From: a bacterium
GTDB lineage: Bacteria > Bacteroidota > Ignavibacteria > Kapaibacteriales > UBA7675
Reading direction: 5' to 3'
NCBI GenBank assembly: GCA_030430495.1
Contig: JAUIKM010000021.1
Span: 1-64,000 of the forward strand
DNA: 64,000 nucleotides
Positions 18,965-43,142 of the stretch are shown one piece after another (position 1 is the first letter of the stretch; each line of letters opens with the position of its first letter). Below the pieces are notes generated by a model. That model was not told the DNA's origin. It saw only the letters and a list, made by a program, of their open reading frames with translations, and made no database searches. Position numbers and translations under genes: made by a program.

Positions 18965-19849
18965 TTATCCCCGTGCCGCGAGTTGTTGGTCGGTGAGCGA
19001 CTTTGAAGCGATGTGAAGTCGCCGGCGATACAGGCCAAATGCGGCGCAGAATACCAGTCCCATGCAGAGAGCCATTGCGCCCGCGATGGATGCATCCAGC
19101 CACGCAGCCAGATAGTAGCCGCCCACAACGGCCAGGCTGCCAAGCAGAACGGTCAACAACAGCATGTGTTTAAAATTATCAGTTAACAGATAGGCCGCCG
19201 CCGGCGGTGCGATGAGAAATGCCACGACCAGAATGGCGCCGACCGACTCAAATGCCGCCACCGTGGTGAGTGAAACCGCGCCCATGAGAAGGTAGTGCCA
19301 GAGCGAGACGGATACACCGATAATAGCCGCATAGGCCGGATCAAATGTGGTGATGTACAATTCTTTGTAGCCCAGGAAAATAAATGAGAGGACCAGAATC
19401 AGCGCGCCGCCGACAATCCACACGGCGCGCGGTCCCATGTCCACGCCGCCTATGTCCAGCGTGTAGAGCGGAGCCAGGGCGATCTCGCCGTACAGGATGC
19501 AGTCCAGATCCAGGTCGACGTCGCCGGCAAACGCACTTGCAAGGATTACTCCGAGGGCAAACAGGCTGGTGTAGGTAAGACCGATTGATGCGTCAATCTG
19601 CAGCATTCCGCGCCGATGCAGGGTCTCGATCAAGAAAGTCGTCAGCAGACCGACGGCCGCCGCGCCGAGCAACATGGGAATGGAATCGCGCGATTCACTG
19701 ATCATAAATGCGATCACAATACCGGGCAGCACGGCGTGGGCGATGGCGTCGCCGACCATGGCCATGCGCCGCAGAATGAGGTAGGATCCCAGCAGGCCGC
19801 ATGTGGCGGCCACGAGTACGCCGATCAGGATAATCCAGAAGTCGTTCAT
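18965..19849 (-). CDS. Metal ABC transporter permease (ZnuB/MntB/TroD family)
   Basis: A 294-residue inner-membrane permease with about eight hydrophobic segments. The start MNDFWIILIGVLVAATCGLLGSYL, the motif GDAIAHAVLPGIVIAF and the later GAILVVAFLIAPPAAAYLL are standard for the ABC-3 family that imports Mn2+, Zn2+ or Fe2+. The ATG at 19849 comes 2 bp after the stop of the upstream permease gene. It is the last gene of the four-gene operon. The paired permease with a fused DtxR-type domain makes a heterodimeric channel likely, as in TroCD. Confidence 0.9.
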   Translation of the reverse strand: MNDFWIILIGVLVAATCGLLGSYLILRRMAMVGDAIAHAVLPGIVIAFMISESRDSIPMLLGAAAVGLLTTFLIETLHRRGMLQIDASIGLTYTSLFALGVILASAFAGDVDLDLDCILYGEIALAPLYTLDIGGVDMGPRAVWIVGGALILVLSFIFLGYKELYITTFDPAYAAIIGVSVSLWHYLLMGAVSLTTVAAFESVGAILVVAFLIAPPAAAYLLTDNFKHMLLLTVLLGSLAVVGGYYLAAWLDASIAGAMALCMGLVFCAAFGLYRRRLHIASKSLTDQQLAARG

Positions 19850-19851
19850 GC

Positions 19852-21180
19852 TCAACCGTGTTTTTGCGGGATGACGCGCGCATGCGGATCGATCTGCGGA
19901 TGATCGAGCAGCGCTTCAAGTTCGTGTTCCAGTTCCGGCGTCAGAATGTGCTCTATCGTTTCGGCGTCGTCGTGGACGTGGTCCGGCGCGATGCCGACAT
20001 ACTGCGTCAGATATACTTCCCAGAGACGGTGCAGGCGCGTGATGCGGGCGCCGCGCATCCGGCCTTCGGCGGTCAGCGCCCAGGCGGCGCCTTCGCGCCG
20101 CACGTAGCCGTGTCGTCGCAGTTGCTCCAGGCCGCGGCGCAGGACGGTCCCATCCATCGGCCGCCGCGCGAGGATGTCGTCGCTGCTGCGCGCCGCGTAA
20201 AAGTCGTCGTCCTGCTCGCCCAGATGAAAGAGCGCTTTCAGGATATTTTCATGGCGTATACGGCCGGCATTGCGGCGTTGCCGCAGCTGGCGCGCCAGCG
20301 CGCCGCGTCGCGGTGCAAAGAGCACCGAGAGGATGGCGAAGCCGGTCAGAACGATCACAATCCAGGGACCCGTCGGTGCGCGCGGCGCGGCAAACGAGGC
20401 GTAAGCGCCCGTCAGGCCCGCCAGTGCGCCGAAAAGCGCCGCCAACAAAATCATGACGGGCAGGCGCTCAGTCCAGTAGCGCGCCGCTGCGGGCGGCGTG
20501 ATCAGAATGGCGGCGGTCATTACCACGCCGACCGCCTGAATGGCAACAATTACGGCCAGCACGGTCAGCGTTGTGAGCGTCAGTTCCAGCCGACGCACCG
20601 GCAGACCGGTGACTGCGGCGAATTCCTCGTCAAATGACATCAACTGGAATTCTTTGTAGAGCATCAAAGTGATGAAGACCAGAACGGTGGCCACAGCGCC
20701 GAACAGGAGCACGTCGCCCGCCGTCAGCGCGGCTATGCGTCCGAACAGAATGCTGTTGAGGCCCGCTTTTTCCGCGCTGCTGCCGTGCTGGATGAGCGTC
20801 AGCAGCAGGATGCCGATGCCGAAGAAGACCGACAACACCAGACCAATCGCCGTGTCTTCTTTGATGCGCGACTTGAAACTGATATAATCGATCAGGCGCA
20901 GCGAGATCCATGAGGAGACAAACGCACCAACTATCAGCGCAAGCGGGTGTTTGGGCGATATGTCCGTCCAGCCCAGCGAACCCATGAAGTCGACCAGGAT
21001 AAAAGCCAGACAGACGCCGGGCAGCACGGCATGCGCCACGGCGTCGCCCACCAGAGCACGCTTGCGCAGGAAGGTAAAGCAGCCCACCACGGCGGCGCCG
21101 ATGCCGAGCAGCATTGCTCCGAGACTGACGGCGCGGACACCGGGATCGTCGAATGTCAGGAATTCGATCAGGCTGTTCAT
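19852..21180 (-). CDS. Metal ABC transporter permease fused to a DtxR-type regulator domain
   Basis: A 442-residue protein in two parts. Residues 1 to about 290 form an ABC-3 permease with eight or nine hydrophobic segments (GDAVAHAVLPGVCLAF; AILITPPAAARYW). Residues of about 305-442 are a cytoplasmic DtxR-like module: a winged helix (HENILKALFHLGEQ ... LRRGLEQLRRHGYVRREG ... LTAEGRMRG) and the metal-binding/dimer region (HRLWEVYLTQYVG, HVHDDAETIEH) ending in DPHARVIP. Candidate metal ligands (H-x3-E and H-x3-E-x2-E-H) are kept. This may let the transporter sense cytoplasmic metal, or act as a membrane-tethered regulator of its own operon. Fusions of this type are seen in some Bacteroidota and related groups. 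Confidence 0.85.
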   Translation of the reverse strand: MNSLIEFLTFDDPGVRAVSLGAMLLGIGAAVVGCFTFLRKRALVGDAVAHAVLPGVCLAFILVDFMGSLGWTDISPKHPLALIVGAFVSSWISLRLIDYISFKSRIKEDTAIGLVLSVFFGIGILLLTLIQHGSSAEKAGLNSILFGRIAALTAGDVLLFGAVATVLVFITLMLYKEFQLMSFDEEFAAVTGLPVRRLELTLTTLTVLAVIVAIQAVGVVMTAAILITPPAAARYWTERLPVMILLAALFGALAGLTGAYASFAAPRAPTGPWIVIVLTGFAILSVLFAPRRGALARQLRQRRNAGRIRHENILKALFHLGEQDDDFYAARSSDDILARRPMDGTVLRRGLEQLRRHGYVRREGAAWALTAEGRMRGARITRLHRLWEVYLTQYVGIAPDHVHDDAETIEHILTPELEHELEALLDHPQIDPHARVIPQKHG

Positions 21181-22067: not shown

Positions 22068-23009
22068 TCATTGCAGGCCGGCGGCGATTGTTCGGACGTT
22101 GGCGCGGATCATGCCGATATAAGTTCCTTCTTCCGTACCTGGTTCGCCCATGGCGTCGGAGAACAGCCGCCCGCCGACCATCAGTTCGTGGCCGCGTTCG
22201 CGTGAGCTTTCAATGACGGCGTCGATAGCCTGGCGCGAAACTGAAGTCTCAACAAAAATCGCCTTGATGTTGCGCCGCACGATCATGTCGACCAGATCGA
22301 CGCGGTCGCGCAAGCCGAATTCGGACAATGTTGAGAGGCCCTGCAGTCCGCGAACTTCGAAGTCATAGGCCTGACCAAAGTACCCGAAGGCGTCGTGCGC
22401 CGTGATCAGGACGCGGGATTCAAGCGGGATCGGCGCGAGAGTTTCCTTCACTTCCTTATCCAGTGCTTCGAGTTTGCCGACGTAAGTTCTTGTGTTGTTC
22501 ATCAAAGAATCACTGTCGAGAAAGTCAAAACCCGAAAGAGTGTCGCGCAGATGTTTAATGGCACGCGTCCAGAGCGACACGTCGAACCAGATGTGCGGGT
22601 CGTAGGCGCTCTCGAAATTATCGGCGCTGATCAGCGTGCGCGTGCGCAGCATTTCGGCCATGGCGATGACCGGTTTTTCTTTGGCGAGCCGTTCGAGCAC
22701 TTCCACCATTTTGCCTTCCAGGTGCAGGCCGTTGTACACGATTATGTCGGCAGATTCAAGCCGTTCCAGATCGCCGTGCGTGGCTTTGTAGAGGTGCGGG
22801 TCCACTCCGGGGCCCATCAGGGTTTCCACCTGCGCCTGACTGCCGACCAGATTGGCGACGGCGTCGCCCAGCATTCCGGTGGTGGCGACGATGCGCGGCG
22901 GGCCGTCGGCCTGAGCGGCACTCCTGTCGTTTTCACTGCCGCAGGACGCCAGCAGCAGGGTGAAGATTACGGCTGCCAGCGCCGTGATTGAATGTGGTTT
23001 GATGTGCAT
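22068..23009 (-). CDS. Metal-binding lipoprotein of the ABC importer (ZnuA/TroA/MntC family)
   Basis: A 313-residue protein with a lipoprotein signal peptide (lipobox LLASC at about residues 19-23), followed by the cluster-9 binding-protein core: IVATTGMLGDAVANLVG, LMGPGVDPHLYKAT (first His ligand), YNGLHLEGKM (second His), a conserved His in LITAHDAFGYFG, and the Asp-containing C-terminal end. The wording GPGVDPHLYK and the lack of a His-rich loop favour Mn2+ or Fe2+ over Zn2+, but this is not proof. First gene of the operon; its promoter region carries the DtxR-type palindromes at 23075-23102. Confidence 0.9.
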   Translation of the reverse strand: MHIKPHSITALAAVIFTLLLASCGSENDRSAAQADGPPRIVATTGMLGDAVANLVGSQAQVETLMGPGVDPHLYKATHGDLERLESADIIVYNGLHLEGKMVEVLERLAKEKPVIAMAEMLRTRTLISADNFESAYDPHIWFDVSLWTRAIKHLRDTLSGFDFLDSDSLMNNTRTYVGKLEALDKEVKETLAPIPLESRVLITAHDAFGYFGQAYDFEVRGLQGLSTLSEFGLRDRVDLVDMIVRRNIKAIFVETSVSRQAIDAVIESSRERGHELMVGGRLFSDAMGEPGTEEGTYIGMIRANVRTIAAGLQ

Positions 23010-23074
23010 TGCAAGTGTGCCCTTGTTGTTATCAGGCTGCTAGGAACGCATGAAGAGCGCAATAATTATCACAA

Positions 23075-23102
23075 GTCTAAAAAAATATTTAGACATGTCT
23101 AA
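23075..23102. promoter_or_regulatory. DtxR/MntR-type operator upstream of the metal importer operon
   Basis: Two overlapping inverted repeats are visible. TTAGACATGTCTAA at 23089-23102 is a perfect palindrome, and GTCTAAA (23075-23081) pairs with TTTAGAC (23088-23094) across 6 bp. The core TTTAGACATGTCTAA closely resembles known MntR/DtxR-family boxes. It lies 66 bp upstream of the binding-protein gene and 47 bp from the divergent helicase gene, so repression by Mn2+ or Fe2+ is likely for the operon. The regulator may be encoded elsewhere or be the DtxR part of the fused permease. Confidence 0.75.
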
Positions 23103-38988: not shown

Positions 38989-39654
38989 ATGGGACCAAGC
39001 AAAACCGAAGAAGATTACTTAAAGGCAATTTATAAGCTCTCCAAGGTTCAACCCAAAGGAGTTGCTACAAAATCCATAGGTGATTTACTAAATCTAAAAC
39101 CACCTACGGTTTCTGACATGTTAAGAAAACTTGGAGATAAAAAATTCATCAAATATGCCAAGTATAAAGGGGTTACCCTGACCAACGAGGGAGAAAGGAT
39201 TGCGCTCAAAATTATCCGTAAACACCGACTGTGGGAAACCTTTCTGGTGGATCACTTTAAATTCAAATGGGATGAAGTACATGACATTGCCGAACAATTA
39301 GAACACATTGATTCTGCAAGACTCGTTGAACGGTTAGATGAGTTTCTGGGATTTCCGAAATTTGACCCACATGGAGATCCAATTCCTGATAAGGACGGCG
39401 TTATAGTACCTCGGCATGATATAACTTTAGACCAAATTAAAAAGGGTCAAAAGGCAGTATTGGTTGGTGTAAAAGACCATTCGACTGAATTTTTAAAATA
39501 TTTGGAAAGCATTTCGCTCACATTGGACACAGAAGTAAAAGTAATTAACGTGATCAATTATGATAAGTCAATCGTTGTTAAGGCAGGAAATCATTCAGAA
39601 AGAAATCTATCATTCCAGGTTTCTAAAAACATTATCGTTCAACGAAACCAGTAA
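38989..39654 (+). CDS. DtxR/MntR-family metal-dependent regulator
   Basis: A 221-residue protein with an N-terminal winged helix (TEEDYLKAIYKLSK; TKSIGDLLNLKPPTVSDMLRKLGDKKFIKYAKYKGVTLTNEGE), the metal and dimer region (IIRKHRLWETFLVDHFKFKWDEVHDIAEQLEHI, with conserved H-x3-E and H-x3-E-x2-E-H) and a C-terminal SH3/FeoA-like domain (IKKGQKAVLVGVKDHS ... ). The choice between Mn2+ and Fe2+ cannot be made from sequence. It is divergent from the di-heme/Rieske/porin operon with the operator in the shared promoter region, so autoregulation plus control of that operon is likely. Confidence 0.9.
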   Translation: MGPSKTEEDYLKAIYKLSKVQPKGVATKSIGDLLNLKPPTVSDMLRKLGDKKFIKYAKYKGVTLTNEGERIALKIIRKHRLWETFLVDHFKFKWDEVHDIAEQLEHIDSARLVERLDEFLGFPKFDPHGDPIPDKDGVIVPRHDITLDQIKKGQKAVLVGVKDHSTEFLKYLESISLTLDTEVKVINVINYDKSIVVKAGNHSERNLSFQVSKNIIVQRNQ

Positions 39655-39669
39655 TTCCTTCTATTAGAG

Positions 39670-39709
39670 TTTTATCACGCACTTTGTGATTGCTTTGATT
39701 GAAACTCCA
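39670..39709 (+). repeat. 40-bp direct repeat, right copy
   Basis: Matches 35381-35420 (35 of 40 positions, same orientation). It begins 16 bp after the DtxR stop codon and contains the imperfect inverted repeat ATCAC / GTGAT. Candidate right end of a 4.3-kb segment. Confidence 0.75.
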
Positions 39710-39792
39710 ACGGTCAATGTCGGTAAATTGCCCTATTTTCAACACTAAATTTGAGCTGTGCTCAAATTATCAGTGCATTCACTCTTTTCACA

Positions 39793-39814
39793 CTGTACTC
39801 CCATTGGAGTACAG
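39793..39814. terminator. Bidirectional terminator-like hairpin between convergent genes
   Basis: CTGTACTCC (39793-39801) and GGAGTACAG (39806-39814) form a perfect 9-bp stem with a 4-base loop, between the converging DtxR and CDF genes. No long T-run flanks it. Confidence 0.5.
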
Positions 39815-39848
39815 CTTCTCCTGGCTACTTATCCAAGAACTCCGGAAC

Positions 39849-40640
39849 TCATAATTTTAATATTCGGTAGGCCCCTTGTGCTACTATCACGAACACAACT
39901 CCGCCGATAATCAGATCAGGTATACTTGAACTTAACCAGTTTACAAGTAGTCCAGCTACAATGACGCCTGAATTAATGATGATGTCATTTGAAGTAAAAA
40001 TCATGCTTGCCCGCATATGGGCTTCTCTACTTTTTCCTTGTTGCAGTAAGTAAAGGCAAATACTATTTGCAACCAATGCTGTGATTGAAACAAGTATCAT
40101 CGTGCTAAAGTCAGGCATGCTCTCAAGACCAACCGAACGCCGCACAACTTCCAGAAATCCAATTGTAGCCAAAATAATTTGAAAGTACCCGGCAAACTTC
40201 GCAACACGACGCTTTCTTTCGGCGGCACCTCTAACAGCAAATAGAGCAAGCCCATAAACAATACTGTCGGCAAGCATATCCAAACTGTCGGCAACCAAGC
40301 CCATTGAACTGGCTACGAGTCCGGCTATGATCTCAATGGCGAAAAATGAAGCATTAATGATCAGAACCGTCCACAAAAGCTTCCTTTCTTTGCCTTGCTG
40401 ATTGTAAGTTGCAAGAACTACATCACTTGACTTGGTTGAAATCAATGTGGTATTGAGTCTTAAACTCTCTAAGGCTGCAAGTATAGGCTCCGCTTGTCCG
40501 GTATGGTGCACCTTTAGCTCGCGTTGCGGAATATCAAACTCCAATGCTTGTATTTGATGAAACTCTTCCAGCTTCATCCGGATCATTTGTTCTTCAGATG
40601 GGCAATCCATTTTGGTTATTTTGAAGGTTGACGCTTTCAT
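39849..40640 (-). CDS. Cation diffusion facilitator with N-terminal HMA-like domain
   Basis: A 263-residue protein. Residues 1 to about 65 form an HMA-like fold in which the usual M-x-C-x-x-C is replaced by MDCPSEEQMIRMKL. Residues of about 85-263 are a CDF transporter with six hydrophobic segments; the metal-site residues appear in VADSLDMLADSIVYG (the D-x3-A-D type site) and later in IFTSNDIIINSG. CDF proteins export divalent metals in exchange for protons. Similar MDCPSEE-CDF proteins occur in Bacteroidota metal-resistance loci. Last gene of a minus-strand run with two exported proteins, facing the ArsR-MerTP operon. Confidence 0.82.
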   Translation of the reverse strand: MKASTFKITKMDCPSEEQMIRMKLEEFHQIQALEFDIPQRELKVHHTGQAEPILAALESLRLNTTLISTKSSDVVLATYNQQGKERKLLWTVLIINASFFAIEIIAGLVASSMGLVADSLDMLADSIVYGLALFAVRGAAERKRRVAKFAGYFQIILATIGFLEVVRRSVGLESMPDFSTMILVSITALVANSICLYLLQQGKSREAHMRASMIFTSNDIIINSGVIVAGLLVNWLSSSIPDLIIGGVVFVIVAQGAYRILKL

Positions 40641-40703
40641 GTATTCCTATGCTTCGTGTAGCGGATTAACTTGGTACGATATTGGAGCACCCCTAAAATG
40701 GCT

Positions 40704-41708
40704 CTACAGCAAGTTGCGCAGTTCATTTACAAAGACTCGCTCATTTAATCTACGTTGTGGCTCTGCACCTGTCTCTCCACTCAGTTGGTGCATCCAAAAC
40801 GTCGGCTTTGGCGGTGGCGCACCTTCTGACCAGTGAATCCCCGGTGCATAGATGAGATAGACATCCCATGCCGTGGGATAATCAGAGTTGAGTTTAAGCG
40901 GCGCTTTAAACAGTTTACCAGCGAGCATCTCCGCATCCCAGAAGTGTGTCCAACGCGTGTGGTCCGCTTCACGTGCCAGTGACTGCGCCTCAGGCAACGC
41001 TCCCCAAGCGTTGATACTGATCCAAACGATAATTCCAGCCAGTTCATTTGTCTCAGGAAACTCATCGGCGAAAATTCGGTTCATCATTCGTTGCCCATTG
41101 ACGCATGCTTTACAGGCTGGATTGGGAATGGATAACACACGCACCTTACCGGAGGCACTGTTAAACGTGTGACGTAGTTCATGCACAGAATCATTAAGCT
41201 CAACGAGATTTTGCTTAGGTGCGGCAAGTGCCTGGTCCGTCGGCTCAATATCACAGGTCACCCCCGGTCCGCTCATTGTAAACGTCGATTCCATTTCCAA
41301 ACCGGCATCGCGCATCGCTTGGAAAATCTCTCGATACCTGTCCATACTATCGAGCCTCAATCGGCAAATGCCGCTGGCAACGTCGATGCTAAAACTATAC
41401 ACCCCAGGCTCGCTGCTTAGCACGGAATGAATACGTGCCGAATCTACTCCGGAGTGCATATTTAACAGAGTAAATTCCAAACTAAACGGCGCAGAGTCCG
41501 GAACATGCGCGGCGTCCTGTGGTGTATTTAAGCTTGGATTGCTCAATATTTTCGCAGCTTCGGTTTCTGCCGGAGGGCTATCGCAAGCCTTTAAAGTTAA
41601 CACAAGAAGCGCTGTAATGCACCAAATCCATGCCCAAAGCCGATTTGATCTTGCTTTAAACCTACCTGCAAACATTGCAAGAAAGTGAAATTGGTCTGGT
41701 TGTTTCAT
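40704..41708 (-). CDS. Exported HMA-like plus thioredoxin-like protein of the mercury-type module
   Basis: A 334-residue protein with a membrane anchor or lipoprotein signal near residues 25-48 (WAWIWCITALLVLTLKAC). A region of about residues 75-145 (FTLLNMHSGVDSARIHSVLSSEPGVYSF ...) has HMA-like spacing without Cys ligands. The C-terminal half is thioredoxin-like with a C-x-x-C motif (NPACKACVNGQRMMNRIF) and a later WTHFWDAEMLAGKLF and WDVYLIYAPG. It may reduce or shuttle thiol-bound metal in the periplasm. Start at ATG 41708 (MKQPDQFHF); the longer frame to 41789 is less likely. I know related proteins only as uncharacterised; the function is inferred. Confidence 0.6.
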   Translation of the reverse strand: MKQPDQFHFLAMFAGRFKARSNRLWAWIWCITALLVLTLKACDSPPAETEAAKILSNPSLNTPQDAAHVPDSAPFSLEFTLLNMHSGVDSARIHSVLSSEPGVYSFSIDVASGICRLRLDSMDRYREIFQAMRDAGLEMESTFTMSGPGVTCDIEPTDQALAAPKQNLVELNDSVHELRHTFNSASGKVRVLSIPNPACKACVNGQRMMNRIFADEFPETNELAGIIVWISINAWGALPEAQSLAREADHTRWTHFWDAEMLAGKLFKAPLKLNSDYPTAWDVYLIYAPGIHWSEGAPPPKPTFWMHQLSGETGAEPQRRLNERVFVNELRNLL

Positions 41709-41827
41709 GACAATTGTTTTCCAAGACTTTGCCTTGGCGAGTTGTAAACTGTTGCGATCGCGTTTCCACTCCAGATACAAACCCAGCAATTCACAATTAA
41801 AATTCGGCTGTTCGAATTCAATTTTTT

Positions 41828-42514
41828 TTAGCGCCCCATCTGGCCCATAATTTCTGTCACAACATCCTCGCCTAACAATTCACCGCAGGCAACAACCAAC
41901 TCCTGTTGCATTTCCAGATTGGCCTGCTCACTGTCTTCACCGTGCATGCGCTCGGCAAGATGGTCGTCGGTGTACCACTTTTCAAATACCGTTTTAACAC
42001 TTGCAACGACCTTGGCTCTTAACCCCGATTCAAGTGGGTGATAATTCTCAATCATTCCCGCAACTCTTTCAGCGACGATCCCCGCTTCCTCCCTGCTCAG
42101 CTGATCGACTTGACGTCCACGATACCAGACACCTTCCTCTCCAAAATGTTCCAGTAACTGCGAGCGGCGTTCCGCATCATTAACTTTTGTAGCGTCCAAT
42201 TCGTGGCGTTGAAACGTTGAATCGATGAACGCTATTTTGTCATCGTCCTTGGCGGTTTCGTTCCAAATAACGGCAATAACAGTGCCACTGCGATTCAGCC
42301 AAGCTTCGACGACCAGCTTATCCCTTTCCAGATCGAGCAAAACCGGTTTGGAGCGGCTACCGCATCCAATGCTGGGGGCAGCGTTACACACAAGAGGAGC
42401 CTCGTAAAAGTCCAGCAGTGTCGTGTCTTGCTTGGACATGTTGGCATTCAGGGAAAAAATCAGAGATACGACCAAAACAGTAACAAATCCATAAAGAGCA
42501 GTATTTTTCTTCAT
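41828..42514 (-). CDS. Exported protein of unknown function with paired Cys, mercury-type module
   Basis: A 228-residue protein with a signal peptide or anchor (MKKNTALYGFVTVLVVSLIFSL). A conserved-looking block follows: YEAPLVCNAAPSIGCGSRSKPVLLDLE, with two Cys in C-x6-C spacing, then beta-alpha sequence and a charged helical C-terminal half (YHPLESGLRAKVVASVKTVFEKWYTDDHLAERMHGEDS). I recall similar C-x-A-P-x-I-G-C-G-S-R proteins beside metal-resistance genes, but no function is known. First gene of the minus-strand operon; the ArsR-type palindrome lies 198 bp upstream of its start. Confidence 0.6.
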   Translation of the reverse strand: MKKNTALYGFVTVLVVSLIFSLNANMSKQDTTLLDFYEAPLVCNAAPSIGCGSRSKPVLLDLERDKLVVEAWLNRSGTVIAVIWNETAKDDDKIAFIDSTFQRHELDATKVNDAERRSQLLEHFGEEGVWYRGRQVDQLSREEAGIVAERVAGMIENYHPLESGLRAKVVASVKTVFEKWYTDDHLAERMHGEDSEQANLEMQQELVVACGELLGEDVVTEIMGQMGR

Positions 42515-42711
42515 TTTATCGTCTACAACTGGATTTGAAGTTCAGACTTTGTACCAACACGTGGACCGTGAACGAGAGTGATTCGTGTTGACTCTTTCGT
42601 CCGAACGTTCAGATGTGGATGCTCACCAGTTAACGGTACCGACAAATTGTCCGAATTGCGACCGACGCTTGCTGTGAGCAAAAATTAGAGTTGGATAAGC
42701 TCCGTTATTTA

Positions 42712-42729
42712 AGTACTTTCTAAAGTACT
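42712..42729. promoter_or_regulatory. ArsR/SmtB-type operator between the divergent operons
   Basis: AGTACTTTCTAAAGTACT has perfect 8-bp arms around CT. It lies 38 bp upstream of the ArsR-family gene and in the shared upstream region of the minus-strand operon. Flanking TTA and AAT extend the dyad loosely. ArsR/SmtB proteins bind such AT-rich imperfect palindromes and release them on metal binding. Confidence 0.65.
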
Positions 42730-42767
42730 AAATTAATTGCAGTCTTCTTAATTCCTGGATAATAAAA

Positions 42768-43142
42768 ATGGCTGAAACTTGCGTTCGTGAAAAGGCCGAT
42801 GTGAATAAAATCAAGCGCTGCCGTTCGGAAATTGAGAACAAGGCTGCCGAAATATGCTCAACAGCAGCGATCATGCGCTTGGCCGGTAATGAAACACGCC
42901 TACAAATTTTGTATCTACTCGCGTTGGAGCGAGAACTTTGCCCCTGTGACCTCAGTGATATCCTGGGTCTGAGTATGTCGGCGATATCGCAACATTTACG
43001 GAAGCTCAAAGATGGGAATTTGGTCATTCATCGCAAGCAAGCCCAAACAGTGTTTTACGGAATCGCTCCGCAGTACCGCGTCACATTGTCGGTGTACTTT
43101 CAGACGTTTAGTAATATATCTGCCGGAGTTGAGGCGGTATGA
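42768..43142 (+). CDS. arsR: ArsR/SmtB-family metal-sensing repressor
   Basis: A 124-residue winged-helix repressor. Two N-terminal Cys (C5 in ETCVREK and C17 in IKRC) and the pair ELCPCDL in the recognition region are possible metal ligands, as in CadC/SmtB relatives. The HTH is LCPCDLSDILGLSMSAISQHLRKLKDG. Proteins with this ELCPCDL-type segment are found ahead of MerT-type transporters in Bacteroidota. It overlaps merTP by 4 bp (ATGA), so the two are co-translated. The sensed metal is most probably Hg2+ or another soft metal; Cd/Zn is possible. Confidence 0.85.
   Translation: MAETCVREKADVNKIKRCRSEIENKAAEICSTAAIMRLAGNETRLQILYLLALERELCPCDLSDILGLSMSAISQHLRKLKDGNLVIHRKQAQTVFYGIAPQYRVTLSVYFQTFSNISAGVEAV

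Follow-up and report, generated by a model that had tools for sequence, protein, structure and literature searches.

The window, that is, the whole 64,000-nucleotide stretch of DNA analysed here, contains a metal-import operon on the minus strand, whose genes follow in the order substrate-binding protein (SBP), ATPase, permease fused to a DtxR/MntR-like domain, and a further permease (Table 1). The fused gene was read as a single intact frame of 442 residues, in which the DtxR/MntR-like region covers approximately residues 302-442. In the Pfam search, Fe_dep_repr_C (PF02742) was matched with an E-value of 9.8e-23 and 80.4 bits, well over its cut-off of 27, and PF01325, the DtxR DNA-binding model, was not matched in the window protein. 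The preliminary description of this DNA had presented the permease as continuing into a DtxR region; one frame with ABC-3 and PF02742 was indeed found, and the same architecture recurred in 79 of 79 aligned fused proteins. Since both domains occur together in every one of these 79 proteins (alignment A2), a frameshift or assembly error joining two genes is very unlikely. At one related locus (L070), the fused gene lies in two frames (permease, 206 residues; rest, 271 residues), either as a decayed copy or through a sequencing error.

Table 1. Features of the operon, the fused protein and the associated control elements in the window
Feature	Position	Strand	Basis
ABC-3 permease + DtxR/MntR-like domain, whole gene	19852..21180	-	ORF, Pfam, relatives' alignment
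ABC-3 permease domain, aa 17-288	20317..21132	-	Pfam E 3.1e-62; fold match PsaC 7kyp
Predicted continuous helix aa 294-324 (exit helix + DtxR helix 1), carries N312	20209..20301	-	AlphaFold, alignment
Degenerate winged-helix region aa 325-369	20074..20208	-	Insertion aa 341-343, scrambled base-contact positions, R340 invariant
Metal-binding/dimerisation domain PF02742, aa 370-438	19867..20073	-	Pfam, alignment
Second ABC-3 permease, unfused, 4-base overlap with fused gene	18965..19855	-	ORF, Pfam
ABC ATPase, 262 aa	21272..22060	-	Pfam; NCBIfam
Metal substrate-binding protein (PF01297, ZnuA family)	22068..23009	-	Pfam; NCBIfam
Stand-alone DtxR/MntR (PF01325 + PF02742 + FeoA)	38989..39654	+	Pfam; candidate operator binder
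Operator palindrome TTAGACATGTCTAA, ~80 bp upstream of SBP start	23089..23102	.	Perfect palindrome
Half-conserved second box TATCACAAGTCTAA, 4 mismatches, exactly 22 bp from first	23067..23080	.	Box search

With its ABC-3 permeases, ABC ATPase and ZnuA-type SBP, the operon has the make-up of an ABC-3 (cluster A-I) metal importer. The importer genes were compared with NCBIfam models, and the cut-off was reached by none of the models listed for them. The best model for the ATPase was the Mn/Fe ABC ATPase PRK15056 (239 bits, below the cut-off of 393), and Pfam found no further confident domain in its 262 residues; the best model for the SBP was the zinc protein AztC, which disagrees with the ATPase model. 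The importer is tentatively taken to be of the Mn/Fe type, with Mn as the favoured metal. The genome that contains the window (G000, 95.6% complete) encodes two stand-alone DtxRs, one at 38989-39654 of the window and one on contig C64. The former lies near two genes whose frames read as a cation-efflux-like protein and an ArsR-like regulator, and this stretch (38989-43142) is possibly a second metal-control island.

A scan of named genomes for the fused domain returned at least 80 loci. Among the 80 listed loci, the titles that name a group include Pontibacter, Fulvivirga, Reichenbachiella and Chryseobacterium, which, like the other titled genera, we take to be Bacteroidota; one title reads only 'bacterium'. 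The listed fused relatives were 47-60% identical to the window protein. The order stand-alone DtxR, SBP, ATPase, fused permease and second permease was observed at 60 of the 80 listed loci; a stand-alone DtxR of at least 200 residues was present at 67 of them, and one lay directly upstream of the SBP on the same strand at 62. The 13 listed loci without a stand-alone DtxR of this length comprised six cut by a contig end upstream, five with the fused gene only and two with an operon without DtxR; one of the six cut loci (L064) retains a 112-residue piece of a stand-alone DtxR. At L040, L052, L057, L076 and L087, the fused permease gene stood alone, and the SBP, ATPase and second permease were not found at the locus. 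Alignment A2 consisted of the window protein and 78 of the 80 listed relatives, omitting L050, which runs off its contig, and the split L070. Alignment A3 consisted of 68 stand-alone DtxRs (67 from the listed loci and one from the window) and omitted frames shorter than 200 residues (fragments at L064, L090, L091, L096 and L100).

In a set of 99 genomes, made up of that of the window and 98 relatives, we read the fusion as present in 16. Nine of the 16 additionally carried a stand-alone DtxR as judged by PF02742, G034 with only a partial match in a 126-residue frame. In the other seven (G031, G037, G043, G064, G069, G072 and G007), the fused protein was the sole PF02742 protein found; the first six of these belong to one genus, and G072 is only 85% complete. 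The winged-helix region was very divergent in these seven genomes. In a phylum-wide scan of 198 genomes, at least 139 gave a match. On plasmids, no match was found at an E-value of 1e-10.

Metal site and DNA-reading part of the fused domain

In the MntR form of the metal site, Asn or Asp replaces Met10 of DtxR and Glu replaces Cys102, as described in the accessible part of PMC10317159. The fused proteins carried this form: the primary-site ligand N312 was Asn in 79/79, 68 proteins had Glu at position 407 and the other 11 had Asp, and E410, H411, H384, E388, H403, D431 and H433 were invariant in all 79. These alignment results showed that the MntR-type ligands are kept almost invariant in the fused domain, and the candidate His and Glu ligands of the preliminary description were thus present. 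The comparison with stand-alone DtxRs further revealed residues particular to the fusion. H401 (window 19978-19980) was His in 79/79 fused proteins and Glu in 59/68 stand-alones; R340 (window 20161-20163) was Arg in 79/79 and Lys in 56/68, respectively. D405 (window 19966-19968; 74/79) was conserved in the fused proteins only, and E418 (79/79) and W367 (73/79) were not common to the stand-alones. D400 was not fused-specific, as 62/68 stand-alones carried it too. To judge by these patterns, H401 and D405, which lie near the site, could form an extra metal site. The fused protein has no SH3 domain; in IdeR, this domain supplies two ancillary-site ligands.

The DNA-reading part gave a different picture. 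All 68 stand-alone DtxRs matched both PF01325 and PF02742; the fused proteins matched PF02742 in 79/79 and PF01325 in only 1/79 (E 0.0027). A second fused set (the window protein and 15 from further genomes) gave 16/16 and 1/16 (E 0.0025), respectively. Weak matches to other HTH families were observed in a few fused proteins (MarR_2, 4/79; HTH_5, 2/79). In the joint alignment, three extra residues (341-343) before helix 3 were present in 79/79 fused and 0/68 stand-alone proteins. The columns of the IdeR base contacts S37, P39, T40 and Q43 (residues taken from the accessible parts of PMC8464063 and PMC10317159) had a mean entropy of 2.31 bits in the fused proteins versus 0.59 in the stand-alones, and the primary metal-site columns had 0.15 and 0.07 bits, respectively. 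The largest contrasts were at T40 (3.37 vs 0.38 bits) and Q43 (2.91 vs 0.32), and P39 gave 2.98 vs 0.70. The S37 column was the exception to this scrambling, being the invariant Arg340 in the fused proteins, and the column of the backbone contact R50 was more conserved in the fused proteins (1.90 vs 3.19 bits). The ratio of HTH to metal-domain divergence was higher for the fused copy in 86% of 2067 locus pairs, which are not independent of one another (median 1.99 fused, 1.49 stand-alone). These comparisons showed, at the level of sequence, that the DNA-reading helix of the fused domain has decayed and that most base-contact positions are scrambled. The loss of DNA-contact residues on alignment with DtxR/MntR, which the preliminary description had named as evidence against its reading, was therefore what we found. 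The winged helix of that description stood as a predicted fold that superposes on the DtxR family, but not as a PF01325 match in the window protein.

The mean net charge of the helix-3 block was +5.1 in the fused and +2.7 in the stand-alone proteins. Given the kept winged-helix fold and this positively charged helix, altered or non-specific DNA binding may occur, and this is the main source of doubt about a role without DNA binding. In the seven fused-only genomes, the winged-helix region was not visibly more DtxR-like, with a DtxR-type HTH match in at most one of the 16 rows; thus, the presence of a stand-in regulator is not a simple explanation of the HTH loss. In a tree of 29 of the 79 fused rows, 29 of the 68 stand-alones, 13 of the 15 further-genome fused rows and 8 more stand-alones, a single branch separated the fused from the stand-alone domains (support 100/98; recovered in 100% of 200 bootstrap trees), the tree being built from few columns and carrying long-branch warnings.

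The structure prediction of the full protein, suggested earlier, was obtained with AlphaFold from 79 sequences (mean pLDDT 86.3, pTM 0.75). In the model, a single helix (residues 294-324) leads out of the permease and on into DtxR helix 1, followed by the winged helix and the metal domain. Among solved structures, the permease fold was closest to PsaC (7kyp; Z 34.3, rmsd 2.5, 276 aligned residues, 35% identity), and the C-terminus superposed on the Mn repressor DR2539 in its DNA-bound structure (8pw0; Z 19.4, rmsd 2.0, 132 aligned residues). The spacing between P290 and N312 was 22 in 75/79 fused proteins and 21 in the other 4, and a loose linker open to cleavage would not be expected to vary so little. 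An in-frame ATG, GTG or TTG was present in the linker of 63/79 fused genes (ATG in 41), and none was present in that of the window gene; an internal start giving a free DtxR is possible, on the codons seen, in these 63 relatives. Because a basic stretch follows the last membrane helix and the domain descends from metal sensors, the sensor domain probably faces the cytosol.

Operator and transcriptional control

The preliminary description had placed an operator at 23075-23102. A perfect palindrome of the TTAGA-N4-TCTAA type was confirmed within it, at 23089-23102, but the second box proved only half-conserved and lies 22 bp away. Exact copies of the palindrome in the 5.6-Mb genome were the window site and one at C25:113142, which starts 171 bp before an 808-residue frame. 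From its features, we take this frame to be a TonB-dependent receptor, and the gene is likely an outer-membrane partner in the same metal regulon. Around that copy (L107:6099-6156; G000 contig 25, 113098-113155), three boxes of the same type follow one another in 22-bp steps, with 2, 3 and 0 mismatches.

Among 67 upstream regions of the listed loci, TTAGA-N4-TCTAA was found no more than 300 bp before the first typed gene of the operon in 22, this zone extending up to 90 bp past the frame start. Within 1600 bp it was found in 42, the extra 20 sites lying at 1.08-1.27 kb; in the other 25, no such site was found within 1600 bp. In total, 45 sites occurred in 1,016,063 bases. The 29 permuted half-sites used as a control gave a mean of 0.28 and a maximum of 3; none of them matched in the near zone or more than 3 times in the far zone. 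In one Pontibacter locus (L034:2383-3439), the operator lies before a gene read as fabH, which itself precedes the stand-alone DtxR; this arrangement may link a gene of fatty-acid synthesis with the metal operon there. Searching TTAGACNNGTCTAA genome-wide with at most one mismatch gave 3 sites per strand versus 14 for the reversed control, which was not significant; nor were the matches within the window, as 11 of 100 shuffles reached 3 matches at up to 3 mismatches. Since these counts are insignificant, the case for the operator rests on its position across loci and on the 22-bp box spacing. The mean profile around the 45 boxes peaked at -11 (0.48), followed by -22 and +10 (0.47), against a mean of 0.32 and a standard deviation of 0.06; this profile is suggestive only. 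In G011, the same operator type precedes the operon, and the only stand-alone DtxR of that genome groups in the tree with the C64 DtxR of the window genome (100/100). The simplest account of these observations is that stand-alone DtxRs bind the TTAGA-N4-TCTAA operators.

Role of the fused domain

The preliminary description had offered two roles for the fused domain, namely metal gating of transport and repression of its own operon from the membrane. Kept ligands, lost DNA reading and the predicted helical link lend the better support to gating; repression is disfavoured by the loss of DNA contacts and by the DtxR directly upstream at most listed loci. On balance, the fused domain is probably a metal gate acting at the protein level and not a repressor. 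The fused permease would be one subunit of a Mn/Fe-type ABC importer, and its C-terminus a retired transcription factor with no remaining DNA sequence reading. On the cytosolic face, the domain would bind metal at an MntR-type site formed by N312, E407, E410 and H411 with H384, E388 and H403, as the conserved ligands suggest. In DtxR, the first turn of helix 1 unfolds upon metal binding, according to the accessible part of PMC10317159. Cytosolic metal filling the site would thus change helix 1; since this helix directly continues the exit helix of the permease, the change would be passed to the membrane part, and import would be slowed or stopped. Both the gating and its direction are put forward on these grounds. 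Transcription of the operon would be controlled apart, by a stand-alone DtxR at TTAGA-N4-TCTAA. The fused protein is the sole PF02742 protein found in 7/16 fused genomes, and it may have a regulatory role there.

More broadly, we consider the chances about even that a large Bacteroidota group has permanently turned the metal sensor of a transcription factor into an allosteric gate, carried by the membrane subunit of an ABC metal importer, with importer transcription under a separate, usually co-encoded DtxR. If so, two sensors of one ancestry would control the same import at the gene and the protein level, and feedback inhibition of an ABC importer would here be achieved by a novel design. If the gating is right, a gene regulator would have been made into a fast protein-level shut-off for a toxic yet essential metal, and annotations calling such proteins repressors would mislead. 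The two copies offer a clean natural experiment, in which the same sensor fold evolves within a single operon under two different selective regimes.

Permease-DtxR fusions as such are already known, YtgCR of Chlamydia being the studied case. In the accessible parts of the Chlamydia trachomatis studies (PMC5599777, PMC7755916, PMC6504234), the ABC permease YtgC is described as ending in a DtxR domain, YtgR; this domain is set free during infection and, with iron, represses ytgABCD and trpBA. A review, as far as its accessible text goes, places permease-DtxR fusions in 11 phyla and suggests that they work as cleaved repressors. The statement that such fusions have little experimental work thus holds in part only, YtgCR having been studied at the bench. 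Like the window gene, YtgCR joins an ABC permease to a C-terminal DtxR domain within a metal-importer operon, and its metal-coordinating residues are reported as conserved (PMC5599777, PMC7755916, PMC6504234). Compared by description, YtgR differs in being cleaved, in binding DNA and in being the only identified iron regulator in Chlamydia; in the window protein the HTH has decayed, and its genome has two stand-alone DtxRs. Our literature search, in which subscription journals were thinly covered, found no report of a fused DtxR domain that does not bind DNA.

Other known systems share single features with the locus. The fused domain resembles DR2539, SloR and IdeR of the MntR/DtxR family in fold and in its MntR-type metal site, but differs from them in having lost the PF01325 match and most base-contact residues, in being fixed to a permease and in lacking SH3. 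The permease fold is that of PsaC from the Streptococcus pneumoniae Mn importer PsaBC, but the alignment with the solved PsaC chain, 278 residues long, ends at residue 302 of the model, having begun at residue 3, and no sensor domain follows in PsaC. To our knowledge, the Treponema Tro permease carries no DtxR domain. The Tro system (troABCDR) is otherwise alike in being an ABC importer of cations whose operon also encodes a DtxR-like regulator (T. denticola; accessible part of PMC2628430). The trans-inhibited importers MetNI and ModBC share with our proposal a cytosolic C-terminal domain that senses the imported substrate, and in ModC this regulatory domain is on the ATPase, as the accessible part of PMC10710835 describes. 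The window protein differs from both in that its domain is on the membrane subunit, not the ATPase, and descends from a transcription factor. In MetNI, the regulatory domain is also on the ATPase and is of an unrelated fold.

Among the alternatives to a metal gate, a YtgR-like repressor, cleaved or membrane-bound and acting at 23089-23102, seems unlikely. In its favour, the operon resembles ytgABCD and has a fused subunit like the one from which YtgR is cleaved to repress its own operon; the predicted winged-helix fold with its DR2539 superposition, the positive helix 3 and the operator upstream also speak for it. Against this stand the near absence of PF01325 matches from both fused sets, the mostly scrambled base-contact columns with an insertion before the recognition helix, the stand-alone DtxR directly upstream of the SBP at 62 of the 80 listed loci and two elsewhere in the window genome, the short, near-constant and predicted helical connection, and the window linker without a start codon. 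We regard as quite improbable that the domain is a cytosolic acceptor, which takes up metal as it comes out of the channel and passes it on or buffers it but does not gate transport. Its direct succession to the permease, the almost invariant ligands and the fused-only conservation of H401 and D405 near the site would suit such an acceptor, but sensor features such as helix 1 and its nearly fixed distance from the membrane helix are kept, and a simple acceptor would have no need of them.

A shade less probable again is a trap, in which pairing with the fused domain would keep the stand-alone DtxR at the membrane. Some transporters do hold regulators at the membrane, PF02742 is also a dimerisation domain, and at 62 of the 80 listed loci the two genes lie in the same row. 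However, F92 and W94, invariant in 68/68 stand-alones at positions that presumably lie in the DtxR dimer interface, are replaced in the fused proteins by Ile, Leu or Val at 397 and mostly by Pro or Ser at 399. The two groups are also fully separated in the tree, and fused proteins persist in seven genomes in which no stand-alone DtxR was found. That the domain is a leftover without function is scarcely credible: its DNA-reading part has decayed, but neither the metal ligands nor several of the fused-specific residues vary across proteins only 47-60% identical to that of the window.
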